A DNA stretch of 54,407 nt from Microcaldota archaeon (lineage in GTDB: Archaea > Micrarchaeota > Micrarchaeia > Micrarchaeales > Micrarchaeaceae). The stretch spans positions 1-54,407 of the forward strand of contig JACWAL010000008.1 of NCBI GenBank assembly GCA_014874295.1. Reading direction: 5' to 3'. Shown one piece after another: positions 49,960 through 54,407 of this stretch. The notes beneath the pieces were generated by a model. That model worked only from the letters and a program-made list of their open reading frames with translations, ran no database searches and was not told the origin of the DNA. How positions within the stretch are numbered: position 1 is the stretch's first letter; each line of letters starts with the position of its first letter. The position numbers and the translations under genes are program-made.

Positions 49960-50436
49960 CTAAAAACTCAATAATGCTTCTATCGGAACGAGTGAACACG
50001 CCCGTTTGACCGTTGTAGGTTCCAGCTTACGTACGAACCAACTCAACTTCATCGCGAGTTGCCTGGCGTTGTCGAACTGATGGTTGTTCAGGAACTTCCT
50101 CCTATCAGTACCCCCTACGAGTTCTTGCGGGTTCAATGCCGGTGAGTACGGCGGCATCCACCGGATTTTCACATTTGGGTGTTCTGCCAGCCACTGCCTT
50201 ACCAGTTTTGACTTATGGACAGGTCCGTTATCTAGGTAAATCCATACCCCGTCCTTATCGCAGTAGGTGTCATGGATCCTATCAAGGAATCTTATCATCG
50301 CAGGGGACTTCGCTATTTTCGTGTGCAACTGTATGCGCCTGCCATCGATAGGATTCGCCGCCTTTATCGAATCTGCCATAGGTGGTGAAGGATACTTTAG
50401 CGCACCCACCACCACATTTGACAGGACATGTATCAC
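49960..50436 (-). pseudogene. IS630-like DDE transposase, C-terminal fragment
   Basis: GVWIYLDNGPVHKSKLVRQWLAEHPNVKIRWMPPYSPALNPQELVGGTDRRKFLNNHQF; N-terminal part not in frame. Confidence 0.75.
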
Positions 50437-50577
50437 ATACAGCCAGTTTCATAGCTACCCTATATTTCTTCATCTTGATGCGTTTGTTCTTATTCATGTT
50501 GATTTTGTATCCTTCCTTGTTGTGTTGAATGAATCCTAATCCTTGACGACGTAAGCTATTTATTGGTACCCGTCATT

Positions 50578-51538
50578 CAGTCATTATCAGGTGACCAAAT
50601 GGCAAGGCGACCAAAGTCTTTTGGGAAGAGAACCTATAAAGACAATAGGGATTGGAGCAAGTACAACGAAGAACTGGTAGTTCGGTGGACTTTCTTTCTA
50701 GATTTCAGCTTCGTTGAGAACTGGGACAAAGAGCTGGAGAGGATGAACGAAGGAAAGAGAGGTGGGCAGTATCTATTCCCTGACTCGTTTATGCGTTGGT
50801 TAGCGATATGGCACCAACTTGTCAACTACAGGGGCCTGGAAGGGATTGCGAGGAAGCTGTCGGAATTGCGGCCGATTCCGTACTATGGAGACTTCTCTAT
50901 TGCATGGCACAGAATACACGGTTTCGTTCCAGAAATCAAACTGCCCGAGTTCAAGGAACTGAACGTTTCTGGTGACGGGACCGGGATGAGGGCAGGCAAT
51001 AGCGGCAGGTACCTGGAGATGAAGTACGGCAAGAAAGGCCGCAGCAAGTATGTTGTGGTAGTCATAACTGTGGAATCGAAGGGGAAGAAGCTCCTCGGGA
51101 TAGACGCGCACGTAGAAGGAAGGGGCCAACCATTAGAACCAGAGACAGCCGTAAAACAGGGCGGGAAACTTATCAAAAACGGCTACAAGATCAATAAGTT
51201 CAACGGAGACGGCGCGTACGACGCCAACGGAACGTTCGAGTACTGGGGCAGCAACGGGACATAACCCGCGATACCCATAAGGGAAGGCGCGAAGATACAC
51301 CTGACGAAAAGCAAATATCGTAGACAGGAAATACGCAAGTGGCGGAAATGGGGATATAGAAAATGGCGCAGGAGGCGGAGGTACGGCGACAGGTTATCCG
51401 TGGAGGGAGAGAATCCGTGCGTGAAAAGGACATCCGGAAAAGATCTGGCCGGCAGGCTGGAAACTTCGTTATGCGCAGAGGCGGTTCAGAAGTTCGTGTT
51501 CTACGATTTCCTGAAAGACTATGGTAGAAGCAGAGTCT
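50578..51538 (+). pseudogene. IS5-like DDE transposase interrupted by in-frame TAA at 51262
   Basis: LDFSFVENWDKELERMN...NVSGDGTGMRAGNSGRYLEMKYG...FNGDGAYDANGTFEYWGSNGT*PAIPIREGAKIHLTKSKYRRQEIRKWRKWGYRKW...; same frame continues to TGA about 51536. Confidence 0.7.
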
Positions 51539-52039
51539 GATACGCAGTTTTGGCGAAACTGCGATATTCGAAGAGCTTCATATAGATTAGCGCTATTCGT
51601 TCAACAGAGCAACAAAACATTCAAACCGATATTGAGAAAGACAAAGAATATAATTGATGTAGAAAATGCAACTGCTGACAAAGGATACGACTCGGAAGAG
51701 AATCATCGATTTGCGCACAAGGAGATAGGCGCAAATTCAGTCATACCTTTACGATACGAGGTTCCATTGAATAGAACAACAGGATTCTATAGAAGAAAAC
51801 CGAAGCGCAGTTTTCCATACGATATTTATCACCAAAGAAGTAAGGTTGAAACCGTAAACTCAGTACAGAAAAGAAAATTTGGTGATGAACTGAATAGCAG
51901 GCTCTTGAAGATGCAAAGACGAGAGATGAAAGTAACTGACGTTGTCTATAATATCCACCGATACATCAATCACTTTGTATCGGTTTGCCTAGGATTTCTA
52001 CAGAGCCAACACTTTAAGAATCTCACCGTTACCGTCTGA
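51521..52039 (+). pseudogene. Second, distinct (AT-richer) IS5-like transposase C-terminal fragment
   Basis: NATADKGYDSEENHRFAHKEIGANSVIPLRYEVPLNRTTGFYRRKPKRSFPYDIYHQRSKVETVNSVQKRKFGDELNSR; N-terminal portion lacking. Confidence 0.7.
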
Positions 52040-52063
52040 ATGGTAAACTTCCTGTAATGAGAG

Positions 52064-52080
52064 AAGGGGCTCCGCCCCTT
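52064..52080. terminator. Perfect 7-bp hairpin between convergent genes
   Basis: AAGGGGC-TCC-GCCCCTT. Confidence 0.5.
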
Positions 52081-52768
52081 ATGAACCCTCTGCACGAACG
52101 GCTCCCTCCGCCGACAAGTCAGCGGTGTCTAGAGCCGTTCGCATCGGTTGAATACACTTCCTGTTTCCCTTTTTTGCTTCAAGTAGCAACCTAATCATCC
52201 TCTCTTGGCCGTTGTAAGTAAGACTATCCTTTATTGTCTTGGATGCATCGTCGCTGTTGTAGGTGTATAAAAGCAATACCATCTCGTTTCCTTTGATTAG
52301 TTTACCAGACGGGGCATCGTAGCCGTCCTGTGCCAGAAACCTCCTTATATTATTTGGAGTATGCTTTAATGAGATATTCACATAGGCAGCTGCGAAGAAC
52401 ATAGAAGCAGCTTCAACCAGATTGTTAACAATTTCATTCATCTCTCCCATAGTGAGCTTATATGCCATCAGTTTCTTGAAGAAAATGTTTGGATCCCAAT
52501 CAGCCATAATCGTGTGTTGTGCATGGTGGAAATAACCGTGGGCCAGAAGGGCTGGATAGGTTAGATTGGCCTTGTGCTTGGAGTTATACTCCTCTATATA
52601 CTCTGGATTTAAAGTGATGACACCATTCCTGCTCTCTTCCACATCCTTGAGTTTGGAACTCAGCTTGATTTTCACAGGTGGAAGCTGTCTCCCGCTCATG
52701 CGATAGAAGAAAGTGTTGATGGATAAAAGCTCCTTTTCTAGTTCTTTCCTGATTATCACGTTCAACAT
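52079..52768 (-). CDS. Zincin-like (HEYFHH-type) protein with degenerate active site, partner of radical SAM
   Basis: ITLNPEYIEEYNSKHKANLTYPALLAHGYFHHAQHTIM...NNLVEAASMFFAAAYVN: HxxxHH helix with Glu replaced by Gly. Confidence 0.6.
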   Translation of the reverse strand: MLNVIIRKELEKELLSINTFFYRMSGRQLPPVKIKLSSKLKDVEESRNGVITLNPEYIEEYNSKHKANLTYPALLAHGYFHHAQHTIMADWDPNIFFKKLMAYKLTMGEMNEIVNNLVEAASMFFAAAYVNISLKHTPNNIRRFLAQDGYDAPSGKLIKGNEMVLLLYTYNSDDASKTIKDSLTYNGQERMIRLLLEAKKGNRKCIQPMRTALDTADLSAEGAVRAEGS

Positions 52769-53808
52769 CCCTTTATCCTATTATTCATGGCAGAGAGCCT
52801 CTCTACAGCTTCCCTCCGCAGCATGCTGAGATTCCTCTTGTTTGGGGTCTCGGTAATATTATAAGGTTCAGTCCTGCCAAGGGCTAGGACGCAAGGTAGC
52901 ACATCCATGGCTTTCACCTCCCTTAGGGCTATCCCATCCCACACCTCCTTTAATGTTTGCTTGGTCAAATCACCTATTATCACGTTCAAAGAGAGGTCGC
53001 AGGTAGCGACTAGCATATCTGATCTTATTATGAGCTGCTTGTACCCAGCTGCGCATGGCATAGAGGCGCTCTCATCCGCGTCTGGAAAGTCATCCTTGTC
53101 AGAGAGCAACGTAATCTCGAGAGTATTATCCGCCTTCATCAACTTGTCGAAGTATTCTCTTGTCTTTTTGAGCGCCAAGAAGTCGTCCTTAGTCAGCGCG
53201 AGCTCCTCATAGTTCTTGAGCGACTTCCATGTCGGCATAGCCTTAATGAAGTGATAGCTCCTCACGCCCGGCCAAATGGCTTGACGATTTATAGGTGCAT
53301 AGTAAGTGTTCACTATATCCTCTAGTTCTACCACGTTCTTATGGGTGACCACCGTGCCTAGCGATACAGGTACGCCGCGCTCCAACAGTTTGTTTATGTT
53401 ATCCATGACGAGCTTGCCTTTACCTCTTGTACTGTCATTGACCATCGGATCTGTGGAATCGAGCGAAATCTGTATCCCTGTCCATTTCTCAAACCTAGTG
53501 GCAAGGTCCTGCATTCTCTTGATTTTCTCGTCGTCTATCTGCGTCCCATTGCTTAGTAAGTCAACCTCCAGACCTTGGCTGAGTGCATAATCAAGGATTA
53601 TGAAAAGCCCCTTATGTATGAGGGGCTCACCCCCTTCTATGGCAATCTTGAATACACCCATCTCTGCGGCATCCTGTACGATTGTAAGTGCATTCTCAGT
53701 CATCATACTGATTAGGGTAAATGGCTGGGCATAACAGTATTTGCAGTCGAGATCACAGATGCTGTTGATGGCTAGCCCTATAGACAGCGGGGCCCTGAGT
53801 AGTTCCAT
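52762..53808 (-). CDS. Radical SAM protein with SPASM-like C-terminal Cys region
   Basis: LAINSICDLDCKYCYAQPF (CxxxCxxC); IAIEGGEPLIHKGLF; PCAAGYKQLIIRSDMLVATCDLS...VLPC. Confidence 0.85.
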   Translation of the reverse strand: MELLRAPLSIGLAINSICDLDCKYCYAQPFTLISMMTENALTIVQDAAEMGVFKIAIEGGEPLIHKGLFIILDYALSQGLEVDLLSNGTQIDDEKIKRMQDLATRFEKWTGIQISLDSTDPMVNDSTRGKGKLVMDNINKLLERGVPVSLGTVVTHKNVVELEDIVNTYYAPINRQAIWPGVRSYHFIKAMPTWKSLKNYEELALTKDDFLALKKTREYFDKLMKADNTLEITLLSDKDDFPDADESASMPCAAGYKQLIIRSDMLVATCDLSLNVIIGDLTKQTLKEVWDGIALREVKAMDVLPCVLALGRTEPYNITETPNKRNLSMLRREAVERLSAMNNRIKGC

Positions 53809-53824
53809 GCGGTTGCCCCTTCAT

Positions 53825-54235
53825 TCATGCAGATTCTAGTTTTGCTTCCTTGAAGGCAGCGACCAGTTCTTCTTTCTCGTAGCGGAGCAGAGGACCTACT
53901 TTTTCGAGTAAATCCTTTGCTCTCTGGTTCACTTTGAAGACTCCACCACTACCTCGGTCGTAGGCTAAGCCCCCAAAATCCTCGTCGCGTAGCATCATCA
54001 TTCGTCTGCGTCCCTCGATATTATCTAGCCCTGGCACCGTAACTGCCATCCTTGAGGTTTTTCTACTCCAACCCTTACCAGACCACCCCCCATTATCCCA
54101 GCTATTTAGGCGACTCAAACCACTAACTGCAACTACATTTTTAGCTGAAGTCGCGGGGAACTCCTCATCTATATACTTCACGAAGAGATTGACTTTTGCC
54201 CTCTCTTCCGTAGATTTTTGTTTTCCTGTATCCAT
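53825..54235 (-). CDS. PqqD/MftB-like small protein, putative peptide chaperone/precursor fusion
   Basis: MMMLRDEDFGGLAYDRGSGGVFKVNQRAKDLLEKVGPLLRYEKEELVAAFKEA resembles PqqD/MftB RRE fold pattern; N-terminal SWDNGGWSGKGWSRK segment. Confidence 0.5.
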   Translation of the reverse strand: MDTGKQKSTEERAKVNLFVKYIDEEFPATSAKNVVAVSGLSRLNSWDNGGWSGKGWSRKTSRMAVTVPGLDNIEGRRRMMMLRDEDFGGLAYDRGSGGVFKVNQRAKDLLEKVGPLLRYEKEELVAAFKEAKLESA

Positions 54236-54271
54236 GCATTCACCTTCTCAATATTGTTAAGAATAATAGAG

Positions 54272-54292
54272 GATGTTGAAAATTTAAATAGC
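54272..54292 (-). promoter_or_regulatory. Candidate promoter of the PqqD-like/rSAM/zincin-like operon
   Basis: Minus strand GGCTATTTAAATTTTCAACATC about 45 nt upstream of ATG 54235. Confidence 0.5.
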
Positions 54293-54407
54293 CAACACTT
54301 CCGCTAATACGAAAAGTTTTTGTTCTTTTCCTGTGACTTGGAATCGGCGGCAGGAACTGTGCGACCAGTTTTGCGATAGGTACCTACAACTGCAGCGGAG
54401 CTGCCGC

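Follow-up and report, generated by a model that had tools for sequence, protein, structure and literature searches.

In the parts of PMC7470986 and PMC12710340 that treat RRE fusions, RREs occur either as proteins of their own or as fusions to enzymes, and an RRE fused to its own substrate is not mentioned. RiPP clusters of the radical SAM (rSAM) type have been reported in archaea, including DPANN (PMC12144867), and the known triceptide enzymes join Trp to the residue at i+2, through the C-beta of an Asn, Asp or Arg (PMC11002830). No description of a precursor that carries its own RRE, or of RiPPs from Micrarchaeota, was found in the open-access literature.

A two-gene cassette of a Micrarchaeota genome, with a third gene adjoining it, was compared with the described systems. 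The window, that is, the whole stretch of 54,407 nucleotides analysed, is an entire contig (C3) of an 824-kb genome, and the source organism is a tiny, symbiont-type archaeon. The cassette resembles the triceptide systems of the 3-CyFE rSAM enzymes XncB, OscB and MscB (PMC11002830) in having, although in the window copy only in part, aromatic-x-[N/D/R] motifs beside an rSAM enzyme. With mycofactocin (MftA/MftB/MftC) it shares the placement of an MftB-like RRE just ahead of an MftC-like rSAM enzyme (79.3 bits), and with PQQ (PqqA/D/E) a PqqE-like rSAM enzyme and, in its bacterial relative L065, a PqqD-like domain. In NCBIfam, the rSAM and RRE-like domains had GeoRSP and SynChlorMet (ScmD/ScmE) families among their top matches. 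Cluster L175 of another Micrarchaeota genome (G071) also contains rSAM/SPASM enzymes, and its RREs were matched by the small-protein family profile.

Gene layout and flanking DNA

The sequence-only reading had described three tightly packed minus-strand ORFs, and this layout was confirmed (Table 1): the proteins have 136, 348 and 229 aa, genes 1 and 2 lie 16 bp apart, and gene 3 shares 7 bp with gene 2. Homologues were clear for genes 2 and 3, and gene 1 was matched by a bacterial homologue; thus, the ORFs are beyond chance. The TATA-like box claimed upstream is also present, as predicted from sequence, approximately 50 nt 5' of the gene 1 ATG. The 141-bp repeat is also the end of contig C10 (100%), with a further copy on C17 (86%); read on the minus strand and translated by eye, it gives the final part of a different ORF (..GTYRKTGRTVPAADSKSQEKNKNFSY and a stop) and then the promoter-like box. 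The 107-bp repeat provides the final approximately 27 residues and the stop codon of gene 3. Repeats at both cassette ends probably explain the assembly break at 54407. The IS debris reported next to the genes was recovered as matches to three transposase families.

Table 1. Coordinates of the cassette features and of related loci (positions in the window unless a locus or contig is named)
Feature	Position	Strand	Basis or remark
Gene 1, precursor-RRE fusion protein, 136 aa	53825..54235	-	proposed reading
Leader motif VNLFVKYIDEEFPA, residues 15-28	54152..54193	-	predicted beta strand 15-19 and short helix
Proposed core NSWDNGGWSGKGWSRKT, residues 44-60	54056..54106	-	family-level Trp-motif statistic
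RRE (PqqD/MftB-like) domain, residues 78-136	53828..54004	-	three strands and two helices predicted
Gene 2, radical SAM / twitch-SPASM-like peptide maturase, 348 aa	52762..53808	-	
Gene 3, HxxxH...E protein, 229 aa	52079..52768	-	Micrarchaeota family, role unproven
Archaeal TATA-like box TATTTAAA (predicted)	about 54283..54290	-	sequence reading
GAAGGTG, ribosome-binding-like motif upstream of gene 1	54241-54247	-	sequence reading
141-bp repeat at contig end	54267..54407	.	contains the TATA-like box
107-bp repeat	52056..52162	.	common to ends of contigs C36 and C1
IS transposase remnants adjoining the cassette	49960..52039	.	DDE_3, DDE_Tnp_1_5, DDE_Tnp_1
Native cassette, same genome	L040 5666-7950 = contig C1 14665-16949		small protein, rSAM, HExxH protein, one strand
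74-aa WDNHWNYQWSGR protein and divergent rSAM gene	L128 988-2239; L127 2452-3700		enterobacterial plasmids

Gene 2 matched the Pfam families Radical_SAM (2.4e-19) and SPASM (3.5e-5), and no named maturase family reached its cut-off among the best 25 NCBIfam matches. The motif CDLDCKYC, noticed earlier, is present, with CxxxCxxC at 53734-53757, and the C-terminal cysteines claimed with it are C252, C270 and C306, which are invariant in relatives. The gene 1 and gene 3 proteins had no Pfam match at E≤1.

Pairing of the small protein with the radical SAM enzyme

A profile of the rSAM family found 11 genes in 8 of 301 Micrarchaeota genomes, ten of them at 1.5e-136 or better and the window copy at 5.6e-116, with nothing else past 1e-30; a single rSAM sequence used as query on the genome contigs gave no match, while the family alignment succeeded. 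Directly upstream of every copy (11/11), on the same strand and at a gap of 2–20 bp, lies a small-protein gene. When 178 genomes were searched with a profile of the C-terminal domain of the small protein, the same 11 places were returned, all at 3.8e-16 or better, including G257, which had been left out of the profile. They were the sole strong matches, the next reaching only 7.6e-4. Judged from these sequence comparisons, genes 1 and 2 are a real, conserved cassette.

The closest relative of the window rSAM enzyme (31% identity) is encoded in L065, from an uncultured alphaproteobacterium, where the small-protein gene overlaps the rSAM gene by 4 bp and its product has the layout VELYMYSLNQEFPA, Trp-rich stretch, PqqD-like domain. 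The small proteins of the window and L065 matched in BLASTP at 8e-7 (a single comparison). The same gene pair, with a gap of 12 bp, is carried by a Polaromonas plasmid. Five Klebsiella plasmids of 4,773 bp and one E. marmotae plasmid encode the 74-aa protein listed in Table 1, divergently from the rSAM gene, and the pair is annotated merely as hypothetical protein and radical SAM protein. Within Alphaproteobacteria, the genome of L065 itself was the only one matched (1/240; 1/180). No further plasmid record was obtained when the small protein of L065 or of Polaromonas served as query, and nothing was returned by the phage search or by scans of IMG/VR with the rSAM and gene 3 families.

Most other rSAM-related loci outside Micrarchaeota and L065 were set aside as generic-looking matches, and L072, L073, L075 and L098 are without a fused small protein. 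Of these, L075 (1602-3410, Acidobacteriaceae) has a CGSASDCAGGGGR repeat protein directly 5' of the rSAM gene, which is likely a Cys-rich RiPP precursor. Candidatus Fermentimicrarchaeum (L098, 488-9860) has a tandem rSAM gene array, upstream of which a repeat protein rich in His-Xaa-Ser (SHSSHSSHASHTSHASHTSH) is encoded.

The gene 1 protein is ordered as a leader motif, a Trp-rich segment and a C-terminal RRE-like domain. The sequence-only reading had it end in MLRDEDFGGLAYDRGSGG...; this stretch is present, but at about residues 80–110 of 136. The small proteins of the Micrarchaeota cassettes have approximately 136–162 aa, the G092 copy being shorter and without a clear start codon. The window leader VNLFVKYIDEEFPA has matching motifs in L065 (VELYMYSLNQEFPA) and in the Micrarchaeota small proteins (LIPYARSASQEY type).

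An RRE (PqqD-like) domain was recognised at the level of the family, the window protein alone giving a weak match to MftB (0.055). The C-terminal domain of the L065 protein matched PqqD at 2.1e-5 and, less strongly, ScmD, lasso PqqD and MftB. The small-protein family profile scored 25.4 over 62 columns against archaeal MftB2, and this score was reached by none of 300 shuffled MftB2 sequences (maximum, 18.4). Across 178 genomes, the best out-of-family matches of the RRE-domain profile lay in L175. One is a stand-alone protein containing IRKEDFGACVLDKTGIYVVNKNGLRLLEEI; the other, containing REYFGGIVFD, forms the N-terminus of an rSAM enzyme. L175 (G071:C11:98500-107141) is a RiPP-like cluster with a 48-aa possible precursor (..RIYFDDTWIKAFGRGYSGPCSWCV), three rSAM genes and a discrete RRE, together with an arginase-family protein (PF00491, 4.3e-45) and a GNAT-like protein.

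The window small protein and nine relatives were modelled with AlphaFold (mean pLDDT 54.7). The model has a leader strand at residues 15–19 (block pLDDT 74), residues 27–77 below 50, and, in the C-terminal part, strands at 80–85, 88–93 and 98–102 followed by helices at 104–111 and 118–130 (beta-beta-beta-alpha-alpha). PMC12710340 gives the expected RRE order as three strands, then helices. The predicted order in this low-confidence model would fit an RRE, with the leader as a further strand. Foldseek with the model returned no significant match, the highest-probability matches being CteB and SuiB, and a PDB profile search with the RRE domain gave no match. CteB and SuiB are rSAM enzymes with RREs. 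The RRE fold expected by the sequence-only reading is favoured by the family profile and the predicted strand/helix order, weakly by the window protein alone and not significantly by Foldseek. Its wider proposal, that an rSAM enzyme works with a recognition domain of the PqqD/MftB type, is supported by the family-level RRE matches and the conserved gene pairing; as in RRE-dependent RiPP systems, the putative modifying enzyme stands beside the RRE in 11 of 11 Micrarchaeota cases and in the bacteria.

Candidate core, cross-links and precursor

In eight non-redundant Micrarchaeota proteins, 30 of the 35 core Trp residues have N, D or Q at +2, compared with a mean of 12.4 in shuffles, of which 0/20,000 reached 30 (P≤5e-5, a value that overstates independence as the sequences are related, and from a test picked after the motif had been noticed). 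The core of the native-type L037, for example, contains WDN three times and WDD once. At +1, +3 and +4 no significant excess was found in the same proteins. The W-x-[N/D/Q] pattern corresponds to the signature of triceptides (three-residue cyclophanes), and its repeats suggest ring-locked peptides. The triceptide core motif, aromatic-x-[N/D/R/S], is clear in the native clade and partly so in the window (WDN, and WSR if Arg counts). For the native clade, we put the chances of cyclophane chemistry as evenly balanced, and our confidence is lower for the window copy. The window core contains WDN, WSG and WSR, with N/D/Q at +2 in one of three (two of three if Arg counts); by the i+2 rule at most two rings are expected because Gly, in WSG, has no C-beta. 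The pattern is also departed from elsewhere: one of the four core Trp residues follows it in L065 and none in Polaromonas, and G204b has no Trp at all.

In the explanation that we prefer, genes 1 and 2 would form a minimal RiPP cassette with precursor and RRE on one polypeptide. The N-terminal leader strand would dock on its own RRE and loop out the core, and the RRE would recruit the rSAM enzyme to it. The enzyme would then make C–C bonds from Trp to the beta-carbon two residues on, yielding three-residue cyclophanes; for the window, the candidate cross-links are W46–N48, the most likely, and possibly W56–R58. A peptidase would subsequently release the product. The adjacent HExxH protein is a candidate for this step in several Micrarchaeota cassettes; for the window, gene 3 or a different protease of the cell may serve, or there may be no such peptidase.

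None of the cassettes showed a separate precursor gene; therefore, the precursor is most likely the Trp-rich segment of the small protein itself. The sequence-only reading had offered the Trp/Gly-rich N-terminal half as one of two possible substrates, and the Trp-x-[NDQ] bias of the family supports this alternative. We consider it likely that gene 1 is a fused precursor modified by the adjacent rSAM enzyme. It would be improbable, by comparison, for gene 1 to be a mere discrete chaperone of the MftB/PqqD type with an odd N-terminal extension, the real precursor being a separate short peptide elsewhere, as in the annotated PQQ and mycofactocin loci with their separate pqqA and mftA genes. The domain does resemble MftB/PqqD, and the contig stops 172 bp upstream of gene 1. 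However, these 172 bp include a promoter-like box and the closing part of a different ORF that is itself repeated, and no plausible precursor ORF of 20–80 aa was found within 300 bp upstream in 12 cassettes examined. Nor would a chaperone be expected to show so strong a Trp-x-[NDQ] bias in its extension, and the leader motif and core are conserved between the G204 paralogues while the linkers drift.

A fused precursor would also be compatible with a different bond, and such a reading overlaps the preferred explanation in all but the bond made: a Trp–Arg/Lys cross-link, a Trp–Trp ether, beta-hydroxylation or epimerisation, with a product that is not a triceptide. The window core has WSGK and WSRK, the NCBIfam resemblances of the rSAM enzyme include the WgkB maturase and sactipeptide enzymes, and both the window and L065 depart from W-x-[NDQ]. 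Because the native clade shows a strong preference that is specific to the +2 position, we regard a different bond as somewhat unlikely.

Gene 3, origin of the cassette and known systems

The HxxxHH motif reported in gene 3 was found as HGYFHH. In the six members of its family, H77, H81 and E119 are invariant, and the glutamate of HExxH, by which a zincin peptidase would be recognised, is missing in all six (HGYFH, HAFFH, HGFFH). The relatives of gene 3 in five other genomes have no adjoining rSAM gene. The single-sequence fold prediction (pLDDT 37) was unusable, and a PDB profile search with gene 3 gave no match. Thus, the unusual peptidase partner of the sequence-only reading is not supported, the family lacking the glutamate and adjacent rSAM genes and its fold not being established; of the three-gene co-occurrence, the part concerning genes 1 and 2 stood and that concerning gene 3 did not.

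An HExxH protein follows the rSAM gene in the genome's own contig C1, in G257 and in G050, and is convergent with it in G092. Profile alignment placed HGYFHH of gene 3 on HELLHA with a score of 21.65, barely above the shuffle maximum of 21.19 (0/200 as high), which is suggestive of a distant link between the two families. As an addition to the preferred explanation, gene 3 could be the dedicated leader peptidase of the cassette and the three genes one evolved unit. Its 7-bp overlap with the rSAM gene and this alignment point that way, as do the HExxH proteins adjoining rSAM genes in at least four other cassettes; with the catalytic glutamate absent family-wide and no rSAM gene beside the relatives elsewhere, we find this role doubtful. 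The HExxH family (A8) was also tried as a marker of the system and rejected as unreliable, being present in 25 of 301 Micrarchaeota genomes, mostly without an adjacent rSAM gene. A TraB/PrgY-like protein, recognised by eye and with no meaningful Pfam match, was observed beside rSAM cassettes in L035 (2889-3821) and L036 (2391-3314) and is a possible alternative processing enzyme.

In a maximum-likelihood tree of rSAM enzymes, the window copy groups with L065 and Polaromonas (85/79; branches are long and details unsure), apart from nine other Micrarchaeota rows (100/100). A 96/89 branch separates all 14 rSAM enzymes that have fused-precursor partners from MftC, PqqE and other enzymes. The affinity of the window enzyme appears, with moderate support, to be bacterial rather than native to Micrarchaeota; therefore, horizontal acquisition, as proposed earlier, is probable, and repeats and IS remnants flank the cassette. 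At 0.47–0.48, the G+C content of genes 1 and 2 is below that of the contig (0.54) and of the neighbouring TruD gene (0.575). Gene 3 belongs to a Micrarchaeota family, which argues against contig contamination. The same surroundings could suggest a decaying, nonfunctional remnant eroded by IS elements and repeats: repeats lie at both ends, one of them supplying the C-terminus of gene 3, IS fragments adjoin, and contig C1 carries another cassette, a native one. With all three frames open, the rSAM cysteines and leader motif intact and promoter- and ribosome-binding-like elements present, we consider decay very improbable.

In a broader reading, to which we give about even odds, each substrate molecule would carry its own recognition domain, a single chain comprising the leader, a core with several cyclophanes and the RRE to which that leader binds. 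This logic would be common to DPANN archaea and bacteria and would have moved between domains of life, and no maturation system of this kind would have been described before for Micrarchaeota. A precursor-RRE fusion would account for such cassettes being missed by standard searches for short precursor genes, and it would offer a simple self-presenting substrate for engineering. The cassette also points to cross-linked peptides from ultra-small, host-dependent archaea, whose chemical interactions are barely known.

Compared with the described systems, the cassette differs in several respects. Unlike the triceptide systems, it is archaeal, its precursor would be fused to the RRE, it has only three conserved C-terminal cysteines, and gene 2 was assigned to no known 3-CyFE family among its best 25 NCBIfam matches. 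Gene 2 is under the 265-bit cut-off of MftC, and neither a separate MftA nor adjoining MftD-F were seen. PqqA is likewise absent, and the PqqE score was 60.4 bits against a cut-off of 381. For GeoRSP and for ScmE of SynChlorMet, gene 2 scored 92.4 and 75 bits, respectively, against cut-offs of 400, and the second rSAM or SPASM partner of those systems is absent. L175 differs in its separate 48-aa putative precursor, its RREs fused to or beside rSAM enzymes and its arginase-family protein. The cassette extends the known rSAM/RRE RiPP systems, what would be new being a single protein that is both precursor and RRE; in the native clade, the chemistry is probably that of cyclophane formation.
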